Shown here: positions 1 through 21,958 of the stretch, piece after piece
How positions within the stretch are numbered: position 1 is the first letter of the stretch
Layout: every line of letters starts with the position of its first letter
IMG/VR virus record: IMGVR_UViG_3300030107_005733
Span: 1 to 22,481 of that record
Length of the DNA stretch: 22,481 nucleotides
Strand: one strand, 5' to 3'
Source of the DNA: a virus
Translations under genes and position numbers: made by a program
The notes under the pieces: model-generated
Seen by the model: only the letters and a program-made list of their open reading frames with translations
Told to the model about the DNA's origin: nothing
Database searches by the model: none

Positions 1-2146
1 GCTTCTTCTTGGTGTCAACCAACTGTTCCTTCAAACGCATCTCTGTTTTTAGTTCAGTGTTTTCCTCTTTGATAATATTGTATTTATCCAACCGATTAGT
101 CAATGTCTCAGCGCCACTAAAACCCTTTATCTCGTCTTGAACATTATCCATACTCTGTGAATACTTTTCAAGATTCGTTTCACTATTAGATAATTGTATA
201 GTCAACTTGTCAACATTTTTATTTGTCTTTTTCTTATCAGAAGTAATATCATTAATGTCTCTAACTCCACCTACCACATTGTTTAAAGACCTTACAAGTG
301 CTTCTTTCTCTACTAACAACTCTTTACTAGTCTTTTCTAAATCATCTTTATGTTTAGTTAGATCGCTTATAACATCAACAGTTTGCAATCTTTGACTCTC
401 AAAATTACTCAACACAGATGGGAAGTCATTCTGTTGATATTCTTTCAATAAAGTTTTCAGCGAAGATGTTTCTTCTTTGATGCTTTTTTGTAAATCGTCA
501 ATAATGTTTAGACCTAAGAAACGAGCAAGCAAGTCTTTACGATTTGTTTGACCATGATCAATCCACCTTGTAATATCAAACTGTTGACTAAATGTTGTCA
601 TGGTGTGTTCTTCATATGAGCCAAGTAAATTACGAATTGCTGTCTCTGTTTCTCTAACATTAGCTTCACCACTAATGTTAACCTTATCACCATGCACAAT
701 TTGGTAAAGTTTTACTTGGTTGTTTGCACGATTTGGATTCCTTTTATTTCTTTTGAAAACTCTTTCGATAACATATCTCTTATCATCTACAGAAAACTCT
801 ATCTCAATTGATCCTTCATTTTGGTTTTTATGAATAACATCAGCAACATTTCTACCGCCAGTTCTATTACTACTATTAAAAAATCCCTGTAAAATAGTAT
901 ATAAGATACTGGACTTACCAGATGCGTTGGGAGAAAATATTCCCGTTAAACCTTTCATTTTATCAAAATTAATAATGTTATTAGGCCCATAAGAAAATAC
1001 ATTATCAAACAAAACCTTGTGTATTACCCACTTCCTACTTTTGTATGTATCGTAGTCCTCAGTAGTGCAAGTATCATAAAAAGCTTTGTGAATAGATAAT
1101 ATCTCATTTACTTCTTGTTCAGAAACGGTGGGACGTTTTGCAAAATATTGTTGTAACAAATCTTGTTGAGTTTTTAAGTCCGTTACGTTTTCTGGTTTAC
1201 CCGACAAAGAGAGATCATCAACGGTAGATTGCACATCAACTTCAATAAATAATCCTTCGGGCTTATATCTACCTCTTATAACAGATTCTACATGCTTTGC
1301 TGTAGTTACATTATAATCGCTAGTATTAAGAAGAATCCTTACGTAAGGTTTGATAGGTAAGTCGAACTCAATATTTTCTATATTATCAATAGCTTCTTGG
1401 TCTAACCTAAAAGTCTTAAAGCCCCAATCGTTGGCCACTTCTATAAAAATACATTTCTTTTGATCTAAATCCCATAGAAGAAATCCTTTTTCTATAGATT
1501 CACCAAAGTTCTGTTGAATCAAAGAACCTGCATATGCAACCTTAATACTACCGTTGTCATCCAATATCATTGGTTGTCGTGAGTGAATATCGCCCAACAT
1601 ACCAAAATCATAATTACGGAAAACACTTTTATCGGTTTCACTTTCAATACGGTGACTAGCGCTTGTATGACTACCATCAATCGCACCATGATAAAGAGCC
1701 ACATACTTCTTTCCTTGTTTCTTATCAAAGTTAATAGGCCACTGATGTTTAGTGTCTTGTTGAGCAAAAATACCATACACTAACTCGTCATTCACATCGT
1801 ATAAGCCACTCTCTTCATATAGGGTGATGGGCTTACCTTTACTCTTTAACAACGATACGATAGGAGTTAAGCTGTCTAAACGGTTATGTTGATTAATAAC
1901 GCAATCGTGGTTTCCAAGTATTAGATCGACAGGAACGATGTCACTTAATCTGTCTAAATAATCACTAGCTAGTTGCACAGCTTCGGGTGATAGATCAGTT
2001 TTATTATGTAGTAAATCGCCTGCTATAACAATTCTATCAATTGGTAGTGACTCTAAACTAGCAACTAAGTTTTCTAAAACTACTTTATATTCTTCATGTC
2101 TTCTTGTTTTACGAATATGTATATCGCTTAGGTGAGCTATTAGCAT
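1..2146 (-). CDS. Fused Mre11/SbcD-type nuclease and Rad50/SbcC-type ATPase (T4 gp47-gp46 fusion), 3' end cut by window edge
   Basis: I translated this frame codon by codon from ATG 2146 to base 1 and found 715 codons with no stop. Residues 1-330 are a calcineurin-like phosphoesterase of the SbcD/gp47 kind: D8 and H10 in HLSDIH, D44 in AGDLLH, N79-H80-D81 in GNHD, H153, then GDIH at 185-188, and a YAGSLIQQNFGE segment near 205-216. After a linker the chain continues as an SbcC/gp46-type ABC ATPase with a Walker A loop (NASGKSS, K411) near 402-413, then from about residue 500 the start of a long coiled coil. In T4 and bacteria these are two proteins forming one complex that resects double-strand breaks to start recombination-dependent replication; here they are one polypeptide. 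The start overlaps the primase stop (TAATG). The zinc hook, Walker B and signature motif lie beyond the window. One Mre11 metal ligand, the first His of the usual GHxH, is Asp186. Confidence 0.92.
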   Translation of the reverse strand, partial: MLIAHLSDIHIRKTRRHEEYKVVLENLVASLESLPIDRIVIAGDLLHNKTDLSPEAVQLASDYLDRLSDIVPVDLILGNHDCVINQHNRLDSLTPIVSLLKSKGKPITLYEESGLYDVNDELVYGIFAQQDTKHQWPINFDKKQGKKYVALYHGAIDGSHTSASHRIESETDKSVFRNYDFGMLGDIHSRQPMILDDNGSIKVAYAGSLIQQNFGESIEKGFLLWDLDQKKCIFIEVANDWGFKTFRLDQEAIDNIENIEFDLPIKPYVRILLNTSDYNVTTAKHVESVIRGRYKPEGLFIEVDVQSTVDDLSLSGKPENVTDLKTQQDLLQQYFAKRPTVSEQEVNEILSIHKAFYDTCTTEDYDTYKSRKWVIHKVLFDNVFSYGPNNIINFDKMKGLTGIFSPNASGKSSILYTILQGFFNSSNRTGGRNVADVIHKNQNEGSIEIEFSVDDKRYVIERVFKRNKRNPNRANNQVKLYQIVHGDKVNISGEANVRETETAIRNLLGSYEEHTMTTFSQQFDITRWIDHGQTNRKDLLARFLGLNIIDDLQKSIKEETSSLKTLLKEYQQNDFPSVLSNFESQRLQTVDVISDLTKHKDDLEKTSKELLVEKEALVRSLNNVVGGVRDINDITSDKKKTNKNVDKLTIQLSNSETNLEKYSQSMDNVQDEIKGFSGAETLTNRLDKYNIIKEENTELKTEMRLKEQLVDTKKK

Positions 2147-3081
2147 TAACTAAATAACCTTTCTTTTATTTGATCTTCAAACGTAAAACTCTTTACGCTT
2201 CCACTGGTTACTATTTCTTCAAATTTTTCTGAACCCATTTCAGCTATGTCCCTTTCTTCTGATTTCCAATCTACATAAGTAACAGGAATATTATATTTGA
2301 CTAATTCGTTTATCATTTTAAACATTTTCTTTTTCGCATCTGCATCTAACGCAATAATAACTTGTGTGTTATTTTCTAATAACCTTTTGAACAACAAAGA
2401 CCCACTACCCACGTTACTGCCAAGAATAGGCACAGCGTTTTTACGTGACAATATAGCATCAAATATTCCCTCTACAATATACAGAGGTTTATCCCATTCA
2501 ACTAAGTGTTCATTAAATATAACCTCTTTCTTTGAGGCCGATGCGTTTTTGTATTTATAGGCTTCAAAAGGTTGAATGGTTCTTGCAACATAATAGTTTA
2601 AGTTGTTGTCTCTATCGTATGATGGAAACAATATTCTTTGATCATTAACACTATAGTATATGTCGTATTTGAGAATGTCTTGTTTCGTTAATCCTCTTTT
2701 CAAAAGATACTCTGCAGCGGGTTTGTAGAACTGTCGCTCTAAATTTCTAAAAAGATTTTCATAGCCGTTGGGTAAAACCAACTTCTTCTCTTTAACAATT
2801 TCTTTACTAAAAATATTATTAATCTGTTCTAAATTCTTTTTTGGTTCCTCATTAAATATCTTTCTATACTGGTTGACATTTGACACACCAGCGAGTTTAA
2901 GAAGATAGAGGAAACTACGACCAGATAGGTTGCAATGAAAACAAGAGAATACGTTTTTCTCTATGTTGACGGTTAATTTATTATTATGATGATGACAGTT
3001 TACACATCGGAAATAATGATTACCACCGGCCATTGTTTTATAACTTCCAAGATGTTGTGCTAATATATCTAACTTATCCAT
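2146..3081 (-). CDS. dnaG: DNA primase, DnaG-like (CHC2 zinc finger plus TOPRIM)
   Basis: This primase of 311 residues would synthesise RNA primers for lagging-strand replication with the DnaB-like helicase encoded at 18624-19970. The N-terminus carries a zinc-binding set of the CHC2 type (C26-X2-C29 and C47-X2-C50). The middle has the DnaG core strand 'RILFPSYD' near 149-156. The TOPRIM domain follows, with E204 in IVEGIFDA and the metal-binding pair D246/D248 in ALDADAKK. It lacks the C-terminal helicase-binding domain of bacterial DnaG (about 580 residues), as is usual in phage primases. I chose ATG 3081 over the in-frame TTG one codon upstream because AAGGG lies about 10 nt before the ATG. 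It is the first gene after the promoter at 3120-3148 and its stop overlaps the start of the Mre11-Rad50 fusion, so the two are probably co-transcribed and translationally coupled. Confidence 0.9.
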   Translation of the reverse strand: MDKLDILAQHLGSYKTMAGGNHYFRCVNCHHHNNKLTVNIEKNVFSCFHCNLSGRSFLYLLKLAGVSNVNQYRKIFNEEPKKNLEQINNIFSKEIVKEKKLVLPNGYENLFRNLERQFYKPAAEYLLKRGLTKQDILKYDIYYSVNDQRILFPSYDRDNNLNYYVARTIQPFEAYKYKNASASKKEVIFNEHLVEWDKPLYIVEGIFDAILSRKNAVPILGSNVGSGSLLFKRLLENNTQVIIALDADAKKKMFKMINELVKYNIPVTYVDWKSEERDIAEMGSEKFEEIVTSGSVKSFTFEDQIKERLFS

Positions 3082-3119
3082 CAAACTTTAACCCTTAAAT
3101 AAAATTTTAATATAGATAT

Positions 3120-3148: not shown

Positions 3149-3736
3149 GGCTTTTTCTTTTTTGGTAGTGTTCAATTCCAATTGAGGTGGGAGTATTTCT
3201 GCAGCTCTTGCTCTTGCAATAACAACTGCATCACTCACATCATATGCTTCTTTACTAAATTCGTTTTTTGTTTTCATCAAAGGTAGGAGTTCTTTTATTT
3301 CGGGGTGTAACTCTATCACTCTTCTGAGAATAAAGTCTTTTGACTTTGTGCCGCGTGGAACCTTACAATCAGCTAAATTTCTTGCTCTTATAACATTCAT
3401 CATAGTGGGGTATTTATTTAACATCTCATAACATTTGCGTTGGATTATAGCGTTGAAAGCAGCGAGTGTGATTATAGTTTTAATATTAGATTTACCGGAT
3501 ATAAACTTTGTGATTATATCTTCTATTACTACTTCAGTTATTTTATCAGTGTTTTCGTTCAAAGTATCTAAAACTTCAAACATCACATTAACTTTTTCAT
3601 GTAGACCTTTTATGTTTTTTAATGCTACATGACCTGCGGTTTCTAATTTGTTTTGATTAAGATTCCATATGGCGTAGCCAGTACAGAAGGTGCTAACATC
3701 TAGTGCTAGTAAATATCCCTCTGTACTGACTGCCAT
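3140..3736 (-). CDS. RuvC-like Holliday-junction resolvase / RNase H-fold endonuclease
   Basis: This is a 198-residue protein with the RuvC arrangement of acidic residues on an RNase H fold. D13 sits in the first strand (LLALDVSTFCTGYA), E72 in the VVIEDI strand, and D166/D169 in the final helix segment AYDVSDAVVIA. A basic stretch with KVPRGTKSKD lies around 125-134. RuvC-like enzymes cut four-way junctions; in phages they debranch replicating DNA before packaging, the role T4 gives to the unrelated endonuclease VII. The ATG is the first codon choice after an in-frame stop three codons upstream. It has no strong ribosome-binding site, so translation may be coupled to the preceding outer-membrane protein gene, which ends 6 nt upstream. 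The last codons overlap the -35 box of the primase promoter. The exact substrate cannot be told from sequence. Confidence 0.72.
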   Translation of the reverse strand: MAVSTEGYLLALDVSTFCTGYAIWNLNQNKLETAGHVALKNIKGLHEKVNVMFEVLDTLNENTDKITEVVIEDIITKFISGKSNIKTIITLAAFNAIIQRKCYEMLNKYPTMMNVIRARNLADCKVPRGTKSKDFILRRVIELHPEIKELLPLMKTKNEFSKEAYDVSDAVVIARARAAEILPPQLELNTTKKEKALT

Positions 3737-3742
3737 ATTAAA

Positions 3743-4381
3743 CTACCACGTTTTGCTTACAACAAAATGTGTGTTCTTCACATCTGGATTATAGATAAAC
3801 GAAGCACCATAACCGTCATCGTTATTGTAAGATAGTGCTACATTTGATACGCCAAAGTCACCCGACTTTGTGTATAATCCGTCACCGCCTCCAACAGTAG
3901 CGTTAAAGCCAAACAATGGATACGATACTTGTGCGTATGTGTCTCCCTCAATAGTTGGATCACTCTTTATAAAACGTCCAACATAAAAATCAACACCTGC
4001 ATACTCGGTCGAAAAACCAAGCTCTATATCGTGATCATCTATATCTAAAAGTTCTGTTGTCGTAGTAGGATAGAAATATGAAATCAAATGCGCAGAGCCG
4101 TAGTCGCCCACTTCCTGCGAAAGTGTGAAATCATATTCGGTAGGATGGCCAGTTACCCATGTGGAACTATGAAAAGGTATTTGACCCCATACATTGAAAC
4201 TAGTTCCAGTTGAATCAAAAGGCACCGTCAATGATGGTTGAACCGAAACCACATCTACTACACCAACACCGCGCCAAACATGGCGACTAAAAACAGAAAC
4301 TTCTAAATTAGAATCTGCAGAAACTGTTGATGAAAAGATTAGGGACAAGACAGCAAAAGCTGCCATGATAAAATTACGCAT
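3743..4381 (-). CDS. Secreted outer-membrane beta-barrel protein (TorF/porin-like)
   Basis: The 212-residue product begins with a clear signal peptide: MRNF, a hydrophobic run IMAAFAVLSLIFSS and a likely cleavage after VSA near residue 22. The mature part starts with a beta-barrel signature, SRHVWRGVG, seen near the N-terminus of small outer-membrane barrels of the TorF / putative porin group. It continues as alternating polar/aromatic strands rich in Gly, Tyr, Phe and Asp and ends in an aromatic residue (SKTW), as expected for a BAM-inserted barrel. It is predicted to sit in the host outer membrane. Such a protein is unexpected between replication genes; it could change surface permeability, nutrient uptake or receptor availability (superinfection exclusion, as proposed for porins encoded by some lambdoid phages), all inference. 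AAGGAG lies 9 nt before the ATG. No close TTGACA/TATATT promoter is visible upstream. Confidence 0.75.
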   Translation of the reverse strand: MRNFIMAAFAVLSLIFSSTVSADSNLEVSVFSRHVWRGVGVVDVVSVQPSLTVPFDSTGTSFNVWGQIPFHSSTWVTGHPTEYDFTLSQEVGDYGSAHLISYFYPTTTTELLDIDDHDIELGFSTEYAGVDFYVGRFIKSDPTIEGDTYAQVSYPLFGFNATVGGGDGLYTKSGDFGVSNVALSYNNDDGYGASFIYNPDVKNTHFVVSKTW

Positions 4382-4425
4382 ACAAATTTTCTCCTTGTAG
4401 GGGGATTGTTTACTACATTAACATT

Positions 4426-4449
4426 TTGACATTCACGCTTGACATTCAC
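4426..4449. repeat. Short tandem direct repeat upstream of the outer-membrane protein gene
   Basis: The 11-mer TTGACATTCAC occurs at 4426-4436 and again at 4439-4449 on the plus strand (13-nt period). The second copy covers the stop codon of the gene at 4446-4889. The pair lies 45-70 nt before the start of the outer-membrane protein gene, where an operator could sit. Its function is unknown. Confidence 0.5.
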
Positions 4450-4889
4450 ACTTCTTTCTTGAGTTTTGGGAACTCAAGGACACTTTGATCACCAGTTTGG
4501 GGATCATCTTCTTTGTTAATGTTTTGTTCTTCACCATCAGATTCGGGTATGAATCGTTTGGGTGCGATTCCTTCCTTATCTAAAAGATCAAGAATATCAT
4601 TTGCATTAACAGAATCCTTACTTTCATTTTCTAAATCTAATAACTTATGAGAAGCACTAATCATTTTGATAAGATTTTCCGTAGCTTTATGTGCTGAATC
4701 TAAGTATGGGTGAGGTTTATCACCCGACATAAAAAGATCTTCACTATCACCAACCATAGCTCTAAACTTTTTAAAAGTAGACATAGCTTCTTCTCTTTCC
4801 TCAATAGATTGTTTAAAAATAACATTAAATATCTCATCAAGGCTCTTACCTTCAAATAAACTTATGTCTTTTAGTTTTTCAAGACTCAT
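4446..4889 (-). CDS. Unknown acidic protein (147 aa)
   Basis: I do not recognise this protein with confidence. It is 147 residues, rich in Glu, Asp and Lys, and predicted mostly helical up to residue 110, with an acidic disordered tail. The two long helices around 30-50 and 65-95 loosely recall the coiled-coil core of T4 gp16-type small terminase subunits, but no diagnostic motif supports this and the setting is a replication region, so I do not assign it. GAGG lies about 9 nt before the ATG. The start overlaps the end of the preceding small membrane-protein gene by 11 nt, and it is followed by the outer-membrane protein gene. Confidence 0.7.
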   Translation of the reverse strand: MSLEKLKDISLFEGKSLDEIFNVIFKQSIEEREEAMSTFKKFRAMVGDSEDLFMSGDKPHPYLDSAHKATENLIKMISASHKLLDLENESKDSVNANDILDLLDKEGIAPKRFIPESDGEEQNINKEDDPQTGDQSVLEFPKLKKEV

Positions 4890-7277: not shown

Positions 7278-7724
7278 TTATTTCCTACTCTCGTTAATAA
7301 GTGAAGAAATATTTTCTTTAACTTGATTATAGTTATCAACTAATTCTTTTTCTTTTATACGAACCATCGTATAGCCTTCTTTTTTTGCCAACCAATTTTT
7401 AGTTATATCGTTTTTCTTTGCCATCATACCAGCATAACTAGGTTTGTTCCCTATATCACCATGCCAATATGCTCCATCAACTTCTATCAAAACTTTATAA
7501 TCTATTAAACTAAAATCATAATATCTCCACCCTTGCATATATTTTAAAGGTTTTTCTCTCTCATACTCTATCTTTAATTCATCTAACATATCAGCAACAA
7601 TTCGTTCTAAACTAGACATTTCTTTTTTAGCTCGGTTCATTGGCGGATACTTTTGAGAATCGCTTAATTTTTGCCTTAACCTTTTTACTTTATTTTTATT
7701 ATATTTTGGTTTTTTCTTAGGCAT
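7278..7724 (-). CDS. PD-(D/E)XK / Vsr-like endonuclease
   Basis: The 148-residue product has a basic N-terminus (MPKKKPKYNKNKVKRLRQK) for DNA contact. A compact nuclease core follows: a helix with E40 (SSLERIVADMLDEL), D70 in YYDFSLIDY, E81-V-D83 in VLIEVDGAYWHGD with H88, and a helix with D106 and K109 before EGYTMVRIKEKEL. This is the pattern of the very-short-patch-repair / DUF559 / EDxHD group of PD-(D/E)XK nucleases, which includes mismatch nickases and free-standing homing endonucleases. Which activity applies cannot be decided here. AGAGGAAC sits just before the ATG, supporting this start although it overlaps the end of the upstream gene by 40 nt. It lies between small unknown genes, a common place for a mobile endonuclease. 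Confidence 0.7.
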   Translation of the reverse strand: MPKKKPKYNKNKVKRLRQKLSDSQKYPPMNRAKKEMSSLERIVADMLDELKIEYEREKPLKYMQGWRYYDFSLIDYKVLIEVDGAYWHGDIGNKPSYAGMMAKKNDITKNWLAKKEGYTMVRIKEKELVDNYNQVKENISSLINESRK

Positions 7725-16301: not shown

Positions 16302-18152
16302 TTAAGTTATTTCACACGATCCACCAGCACATGCTAGCTCACCTGTGAGATTAGTATTATCTATTAGTTCCACCACTCCACTTAAATCCACCTCTCTTAA
16401 GTTATTAAACAAATCTTTAAAAGTTACTTTATCTATATCTTCAAAAGGAGCTTGTTTATAAGATCCGCCAAAATAAGGAAGTACAGATAGTCCGTTATAA
16501 TAATCACGGTTATCCCACATCCACTTGCCTACTTCTTCCCATTCATCTTCCTTAACGGAAACAGTGCAAGAAACATTATGTGTATTATTACCATTGTTAT
16601 GAGCGGGAACAATCCAACGATTGTAAATGTCTTTTACTCTTTCTAACAACTCTACCGATGTTTCATGTCTTAATATACCGTCACTTGGTGCTTGTTGAGG
16701 TATAGATATTACTGCTTGTTGATCAGGCTTAAAAAAATCATCTTCTAATAGTTCGGGGTGATTAACTTTTAAATAATTGTAAATAGCTTCATTCTTACCA
16801 ACTCTAATACGCCGAATATAATAGTCATTGTGCCATGCGTGAATACCACTTGAAGTACCTAAAACACAAGACGTAGTTCCACTTGGCTTCACTGTAGTAA
16901 TTCTTGCAGCTGTATTAATACCAAATTCAGATGCATAATATTTATTAGTTGATACGGCCATTTCTGCAGCTTCTTCTAAATCTAACTTTTGTACACGACC
17001 ACTTCCAATACCTGTCATACCAATCCCAAGTAAAGCATCCTTTTCAGTAGTTCGGCGCCATACATCACGTAAATAATGAAAGTTAGTGTAAGTAGCTTGA
17101 AGAGTTCCGATAAGAGATGCAGCAGAAACTCTTTCATTGAGTTCTTGTTGTGTCTCTACATCACTTACATTTACCTCACAAAGATTACAAAATTGAAAAG
17201 GTCGTAAGGCAATTTCTGCACAAGGATTAGTTCCCCACTCAGAATCGTTTGTAAAATAAACGCCAGGCTCTCCTGCGCCACTTTCTTTTACTTTTTCCCA
17301 AATATTGAAAAAATCTTTTTTCTTAACTCTATGTCTAACCACCACTGCCGAATTGTTTGCTCTTGCTCTTTGCGGTTCTGTTTCCCACCAATCTCCGAAT
17401 TTAGATTGGAGCATTTCTTTATCATCAAGGGAAAACAAACTAATAGTAGCAGACCTACGGATACCACCAGATAATACTGCATCTGCAATCCAACAGTTAA
17501 TATCGTGCACTTCCAAAGTAGATAATTGATCTCCATGTTCTTTCCTATCAAAAATTCTTTTTATATTATGAACACAATCTTTTAGTGGTTGTGGGCCGGG
17601 AGCCTTACCGCCACTAGTTACTAACAAAGCACCTTTTGGTCGAACACTAGTAAAGTCAAATTCTGGTTCGGGCTTATCAAGAAAATATGACTTCATCAAC
17701 ATTTTTATACAATCAGCCCAACCTTCAATACTATCACCGACAAGGTAACGGCGTTTTTTTGTGGGTTTAGTAATAGTTGGTAATTTTTCTACATGATGTT
17801 TTTGCACCGAATAACCCACACCAGTTCCACCTAATAGTAGAAACATCACTTCACTAAACGCTCTGTAATCATCCATCGGTAAATAAGCACAATTGTATAT
17901 ACGAGAAGGTGTCTGTTTTATAGCACCACCTGCAAATTGTAAAGAACGCATAGACGGTAAAACTTTTTTATCATATACTAACTCATAAGCCTTTTCTATA
18001 TTTGACTTAATGTTAGGAAAGTTAGAGATATGCATATCACGATTGCGTGTTATTAATTCTTCCCATGTTTCGCGGCGTTGCTCTGCCGGAAGATACCTTG
18101 CATATTTCATATGCACAGTAATTTCTGATAAAATTTGTTGACTTATATCCAA
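16302..18152 (-). CDS. nrdJ: Class II (adenosylcobalamin-dependent) ribonucleotide reductase, monomeric type
   Basis: This enzyme reduces ribonucleotides (triphosphates in the monomeric Lactobacillus-type family) to deoxyribonucleotides using a B12-generated thiyl radical, so it works with or without oxygen. The sequence shows the disulfide partners C88 (RIYNCAYL) and C322 (FQFCNLCEV), the radical-site motif N309-P-C311-A-E313, LLLGGTGVGYSV (105-116), VKPSGTTSCVLGTSSGIHAW, and the C-terminal redox pair C608/C613 in CAGGSC. At 616 residues it is shorter than the 739-residue L. leichmannii enzyme. No small subunit or activase is expected for this class. The start codon is TTG 18152, with GGAG 7 nt upstream. 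It follows the FmdB-like gene by 2 nt. The host must make or import cobalamin. Confidence 0.93.
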   Translation of the reverse strand: MDISQQILSEITVHMKYARYLPAEQRRETWEELITRNRDMHISNFPNIKSNIEKAYELVYDKKVLPSMRSLQFAGGAIKQTPSRIYNCAYLPMDDYRAFSEVMFLLLGGTGVGYSVQKHHVEKLPTITKPTKKRRYLVGDSIEGWADCIKMLMKSYFLDKPEPEFDFTSVRPKGALLVTSGGKAPGPQPLKDCVHNIKRIFDRKEHGDQLSTLEVHDINCWIADAVLSGGIRRSATISLFSLDDKEMLQSKFGDWWETEPQRARANNSAVVVRHRVKKKDFFNIWEKVKESGAGEPGVYFTNDSEWGTNPCAEIALRPFQFCNLCEVNVSDVETQQELNERVSAASLIGTLQATYTNFHYLRDVWRRTTEKDALLGIGMTGIGSGRVQKLDLEEAAEMAVSTNKYYASEFGINTAARITTVKPSGTTSCVLGTSSGIHAWHNDYYIRRIRVGKNEAIYNYLKVNHPELLEDDFFKPDQQAVISIPQQAPSDGILRHETSVELLERVKDIYNRWIVPAHNNGNNTHNVSCTVSVKEDEWEEVGKWMWDNRDYYNGLSVLPYFGGSYKQAPFEDIDKVTFKDLFNNLREVDLSGVVELIDNTNLTGELACAGGSCEIT

Positions 18153-21885: not shown

Positions 21886-21958
21886 TACTCCCAACGGGAC
21901 TTGAACCCGTATTTTTGCCTTGAAAGGGCAATATCCTAACCGATTAGATGATGGGAGC
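21886..21958 (-). tRNA. tRNA-Glu (anticodon UUC)
   Basis: The 73-nt cloverleaf folds by eye. The acceptor stem GCTCCCA/TGGGAGT has a G-U first pair. A D-arm ATCT...AGGAT follows. The anticodon stem TTGCC/GGCAA has loop CTTTCAA giving anticodon TTC, and the T-arm is ACGGG-TTCAAGT-CCCGT. The discriminator is A. The terminal CCA is not encoded, so host CCA-adding enzyme is needed. It would read GAA/GAG, codons heavily used in the Glu-rich phage proteins here. Confidence 0.92.

Follow-up and report, generated by a model that had tools for sequence, protein, structure and literature searches.

The separate-chain Mre11–Rad50 (SbcCD) complex is an M2R2 assembly in which the C terminus of Mre11 contacts Rad50. 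Single-chain versions of this machine are also on record. Yoshida, Claverie and Ogata (2011, PMC3175470) described Mre11/Rad50 fusions in Mimivirus, Bacillus phage 0305phi8-36, bacteria, plasmids, and eukaryotes, argued for repeated fusions, and noted primases among the neighbors of such genes. The same study found genes resembling Mimivirus R555 to be abundant in marine viral samples and suggested that many may come from phages; its summary of the roles of T4 gp46/gp47 is the basis for the function assigned below.

The stretch of DNA analyzed here (the window) is a linear viral contig of 22,481 bases with a gene of this kind at one edge. We assign its product, with a probability of about 0.9, as a single-chain Mre11–Rad50 (SbcD–SbcC) protein of a marine-type tailed phage and a member of the known viral fusion family. 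The protein is not new in kind. A preliminary description of the sequence had implied that the fusion is rare, a view at odds with the 2011 account and with the outcome of a database search for the same architecture, which that description had proposed and which found fused genes in dozens of viral contigs and seven sequenced phage isolates. To this the present analysis adds long contigs on which the marine genes are complete fusions, their order relative to primase, and trees of both halves.

Layout and predicted anatomy of the fused protein

The fused gene occupies the minus strand (window 2146..2), where an ATG opens a frame of 715 codons that reaches the contig edge with no stop; the other two minus-strand frames contain 56 and 116 stops. 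The features are as follows.

2146..3084, minus strand: DNA primase (Toprim/zinc-ribbon), directly upstream of the fused gene, with a stop/start overlap TAATG
2..2146, minus strand: fused SbcD–SbcC (Mre11–Rad50) gene, first 715 codons; the 3' end lies past the contig edge, and complete relatives have 1056–1058 aa
1439..2146, minus strand: calcineurin-type nuclease domain, residues 1–236, with conserved metal-site residues D8, H10, D44, N79, H80, H153, D186, and H188
1583..1594, minus strand: GDIH, residues 185–188, where most SbcD/Mre11 proteins have GHxH
1235..1438, minus strand: predicted Mre11-type capping domain, residues 237–304, from an AlphaFold2 model and a structural match to SbcD with a capping domain
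1067..1177, minus strand: predicted helix-loop-helix of the Rad50-binding type, helices 324–336 and 343–360, from the model against Thermotoga Mre11 3tho_B
1034..1066, minus strand: linker of about 11 residues (361–371) from nuclease part to ATPase part; low confidence in the model, supported by frame and purifying selection
509..1033, minus strand: Rad50/SbcC N-terminal ATPase lobe, residues 372–546, from Pfam and the model
908–928, minus strand: Walker A NASGKSS, residues 407–413, inside the N-terminal ATPase lobe
497..586, minus strand: probable recombination breakpoint, residues 521–550; upstream sequence nearest relative L017, downstream sequence nearest relative L025
2..508, minus strand: first arm of the coiled coil, residues 547–715, cut by the contig end

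Pfam recognizes Metallophos_2 at residues 1–228 (1.9e-9) and AAA_23 at residues 381–609 (1.7e-12) in the same frame, PHROGs also detects both halves in one frame, and a PDB profile search returns SbcC (6s6v_C, 3.2e-36) and Mre11 (3qg5_C, 1.2e-18). The nuclease motifs D8/H10, GD44, GNHD 78–81, H153, GDIH 185–188, and YAGSL...E216 are present, including every motif listed in the preliminary description, whose central observation, an uninterrupted frame that passes from an SbcD-type nuclease into an SbcC-type P-loop and the start of a coil, is confirmed. The order it gave is likewise sound: with nuclease, helix-loop-helix, and ATPase in succession, the chain agrees with the contact that the Mre11 C terminus is known to make with Rad50. 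Fusion may, as it proposed, fix a 1:1 stoichiometry, but little is gained by this, the unfused complex being M2R2 in any case.

The contig ends before the C-terminal third of the window protein, for which relatives are the only source; the completeness of the protein is therefore taken from them. Walker A is the only one of the Walker A, signature, Walker B, and D-loop motifs reached before the contig ends; complete relatives hold all four. Their ATPase half contains a coiled coil, a CKKC hook near residue 740, a GSGME signature, a Walker B motif (FVIDEG), a D-loop (GTLD), and an ISH switch; among these are the Walker B, signature, and CxxC zinc hook that the preliminary description had proposed to look for downstream. 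The hook lies past the window's end; it reads CKKC or CSKC in every close relative, among them L025, whose coil is of the window's type. In clades farther removed it is either CxxC or a spaced CGDxxPxC, and the latter spacing marks a large clade of fused proteins (L011, L031, L048, and numerous others).

For relative L017, the AlphaFold2 model (pLDDT 79.7) matches SbcD 7dog_A over residues 1–303 (Z 25.2, 277 aligned, rmsd 2.7) and Rad50 3av0_B over residues 371–1057 (Z 29.8, 354 aligned, rmsd 4.0), the Rad50 match spanning both ATPase lobes; domain placement is not established by this full model, because its pTM is only 0.45. Window residues 1–372 were also modeled (pLDDT 87.7) and match Thermotoga Mre11 3tho_B over residues 1–363 (Z 25.6, 330 aligned, rmsd 8.1) and E. 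coli SbcD 7yzo_B, taken from complex structures (Z 25.1, 305 aligned, rmsd 3.9). The 3tho_B match covers the capping domain and the C-terminal helix-loop-helix, both of which the window protein is predicted to contain. About 11 residues separate the last helix of the latter (343–360) from the first ATPase strand at residue 372; for the Thermotoga complex, Yoshida et al. (2011, PMC3175470) put the number required to bridge the 28 Å between chains at 9–12 residues. Judged from the domain matches and this linker length, the predicted anatomy is that of a normal M2R2 complex with its two chains joined.

The nuclease metal site, the junction, and alternative readings

The eight metal-site residues listed above are invariant in a 47-row alignment, as are the SbcD/Mre11 metal motifs DxH, GD, GNHD, and HG, all present in the window protein. 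The first His of GHxH is absent, with Asp186 in its place, and a pattern match finds GD[IV]H in 82/82 single-frame loci. Among unfused phage-type SbcD proteins, GHxH occurs in 11/12, and T5-like phage PSTCR5 has GDLH. Four fused proteins of 1301–1326 aa from Bacteroidota and Sphingomonas phages (L114–L117, from Tenacibaculum, Sphingomonas, and Chryseobacterium phages) have GDIH in three cases and GHIH in PAU, and all four have Gln at the H10 position, converting DxH to DxQ, with the other metal-site residues retained. The choice between Asp and His thus appears to follow lineage rather than fusion, with exceptions both ways, because PAU is fused with GHxH and PSTCR5 is unfused with GDxH; the same pair eliminates Asp186 as a mark of fusion. 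The suggestion in the preliminary description that Asp186 is a normal phage variant holds, the residue being universal in the close family and both His and Asp being found in fused and unfused proteins. Yoshida et al. (2011, PMC3175470) placed Pyrococcus Mre11 His206 among the residues for nuclease activity and reported Asp at this position in Mimivirus R555. With Asp also present in R555 and in the unfused SbcD of PSTCR5, Asp186 is no ground for exclusion from SbcD/Mre11. The window protein would presumably use metal with Asp186 in the site, and an Asp among the metal ligands could make the nuclease activity weaker or different.

Other phages usually have sbcD and sbcC as separate adjacent genes, and an assembly or sequencing artefact that merges two such neighbors would produce an apparent fusion. 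The record of Listeria phage LMTA-57 may be an example: a single SbcD–SbcC protein of 1009 aa is annotated (L113, 3851–6880), its close relative A511 has two genes, and the downstream coordinates are shifted by one base relative to A511, which makes an indel of one base or an error in sequencing likely. The window protein, in contrast, has relatives in 11 viral contigs, nine of which (L001–L008 and L010, 69–79% identical to it) keep an open frame across the junction and encode the complete proteins of 1056–1058 residues. Comparison with five near relatives gives pN/pS of 0.09–0.21 for junction residues 330–385, similar to both domains, with synonymous sites near saturation, and the junction is thus under purifying selection. 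A conserved internal start near residue 372 was sought in the relatives and none was found; a hidden start that would yield a separate SbcC is rejected on this count, and one TTG column (residue 299) is absent from the window. A profile scan of viral contigs returned 80 loci, and of the 85 tested once others were included, 82 have the fusion in one open frame, cultured phages among them. The three exceptions are L025, a truncated contig; L013, in which an ORF is inserted; and L096, a true two-gene phage. With the frame conserved in near and distant relatives and the junction under selection, the junction that the preliminary description wished to see confirmed is supported: the fusion is no assembly artefact, and we put the chance of one at practically nil. 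In L013 (LR756508.1, a 484-kb phage), the inserted ORF at 3662–4579 has a TnsA-like endonuclease domain (Pfam 5.8e-6) and splits the fused gene just after GDIH; the insertion is likely intron- or intein-like, and an Rfam search of the interrupted gene gave no intron match.

Other readings accept the single chain and dispute its function. Replacement of a metal-binding His by Asp186 across the close family would fit a protein that does not cut DNA and instead acts as an ATP-driven DNA tether or end clamp, with the nuclease half as a dimer interface. Asp is itself a good metal ligand, however, the remaining metal-site residues are invariant, and the nuclease domain and the ATPase lobe evolve at similarly slow rates, all of which makes such a protein improbable. 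A phage-borne, defense-like SMC system (Lamassu-like) rather than a repair or replication enzyme is more improbable again: PADLOC LmuB matches the ATPase half of L017 (1.1e-21), but this match is limited to the shared SMC/Rad50 ATPase, and the fused gene adjoins primase among replication genes and encodes an Mre11-type nuclease together with a CxxC hook. A single-chain Mre11–Rad50 enzyme of phage replication and repair remains the preferred reading.

Distribution, inheritance, and probable exchange of the coil

The sequenced phages with the fusion are Microcystis phage Mel-JY01; Tenacibaculum phages pT24, PTm1, and PTm5; Chryseobacterium phages MA9V-1 and MA9V-2; and Sphingomonas phage PAU. 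PHROG 35725, named metallo-phosphoesterase, is a full-length fused family. Fusions are common in aquatic phages and hidden by the labels 'AAA domain' and 'metallo-phosphoesterase'. Bacterial genomes gave seven matches, all in metagenome-assembled genomes and probably viral contigs binned with hosts; fused genes in bacterial and archaeal contigs of this type (L106–L109, from Nitrosopelagicus, Halobacteriovorax, Chloroflexi, and Methylococcaceae) are also probably viral. Plasmid relatives were limited to Vibrio records that match the nuclease third alone.

ATPase and nuclease trees were built from phage proteins, leaving out giant-virus, plasmid, and eukaryotic fusions. Among the sampled phage proteins, the fused ones are monophyletic, with support of 99 for the ATPase and of 90 in one sample and 71 in another for the nuclease. 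The halves share their inheritance: each half of the window protein is nearer to other fusions than to unfused phage SbcD or SbcC, and this agreement between the two trees suggests one old fusion behind the sampled phage fusions.

The coil has a different history from the head. The window protein shares 89–93% identity with L017 as far as residue 566 or so and 24–42% in the coil, and its identity to L025 is 82% in the ATPase lobe and 63–80% in the coil, with informative sites switching between residues 521 and 550 (window 497–586, minus strand). Topology tests reject a window–L025 grouping in the head (AU p 0.0115) and a window–L017 grouping in the coil (AU p 6e-52). A second, independent contig set behaves in the same way, joining L020 with L024 in the head and L022 with L024 in the coil, with alternatives rejected at AU p 0.0009 and 0.0001. 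Recombination that swaps coil versions appears to be the simplest reading of the conflict between head and coil in the two sets. Chimeric assembly of the window alone was considered and set aside, as it cannot account for the conflict in the second set. More tentatively, the coil and hook may be a swappable cassette traded by recombination while the heads are kept, perhaps with the hook deciding partners or serving as a target of others; any selective reason for the exchange is speculation, and a literature search on coil exchange found none. If cassette-like exchange is true, it bears on what the zinc hook is for.

Replication context and comparison with known systems

The fused gene is embedded among replication genes. 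The stop codon of primase overlaps its start codon (TAATG), which suggests translational coupling of the two, and primase lies within 1.5 kb upstream (<=1.5 kb) in 68/76 fused loci with enough sequence. Neighbors include, besides primase, a RuvC-like resolvase, a DnaE-type polymerase, a DnaB-like helicase, and a 5'-3' exonuclease, with ribonucleotide reductase and dCMP deaminase as further members; in L001, PhoH follows the fused gene. Seven virus records, each linear, possibly incomplete, and between 20 and 274 kb long, contain no AAA_23 match other than the fused gene. The window's ribonucleotide reductase (16302–18152) is only 616 aa long and apparently class II, with a weak match to a B12-dependent insertion domain. 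A small protein with a DUF559/Vsr-like endonuclease fold (7278–7724) is possibly a free-standing nicking endonuclease, and a single tRNA-Glu (ttc) gene is present at 21886–21958 on the minus strand.

Two chains of the fused protein most likely form one symmetrical, homodimeric, and self-contained M2R2 machine in which the nuclease domains would pair and each helix-loop-helix would grip the coiled-coil root. ATP would join both ATPase heads over a DNA end, and at the tip of the coil the CxxC hook would link two chains or two DNAs. DNA ends clipped and resected in this way would feed phage recombination, recombination-dependent replication, and repair, as with T4 gp46/gp47. Judged by family and neighborhood, the protein most likely resects and bridges DNA ends in recombination-dependent replication and repair. 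In a single-chain Mre11–Rad50 of this kind, nature offers a two-protein repair machine in conveniently simplified form.

Comparison with Mimivirus R555 and the giant-virus fusions reveals a common plan, nuclease followed by ATPase in one chain with the capping domain and helix-loop-helix kept and a short linker between halves. R555 also shares Asp for the first His of GHxH and has related genes abundant in marine viral samples. In the viral model library, giant-virus fusions match best (Tupanvirus, 23% identity across 1320 columns), but R555 has 1351 aa, whereas the window's relatives have 1057 aa and phage replication genes around them. The fused proteins of the seven sequenced phages, whose annotations say no more than 'AAA domain', 'DNA repair', or 'metallo-phosphoesterase', have the architecture of the window protein in 1066 to 1326 aa. 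That of Mel-JY01 is about 32% identical to it; those of the Bacteroidota and Sphingomonas phages are longer, have Gln at H10, and have diverged too far for the window protein to detect them directly, and PAU has GHIH rather than GDIH. T4 gp47/gp46 and the SbcD/SbcC pairs of Herelleviridae and cyanophages share the domains and presumed end-processing role of the fusion but are encoded by two genes, frequently separated by a small one; the sampled pairs have GHxH and fall on other branches in both trees. E. coli SbcCD and archaeal and eukaryotic Mre11–Rad50 share the predicted fold of every domain, including the cap and the helix-loop-helix, but consist of separate chains with about 15–26% identity in structural alignments.
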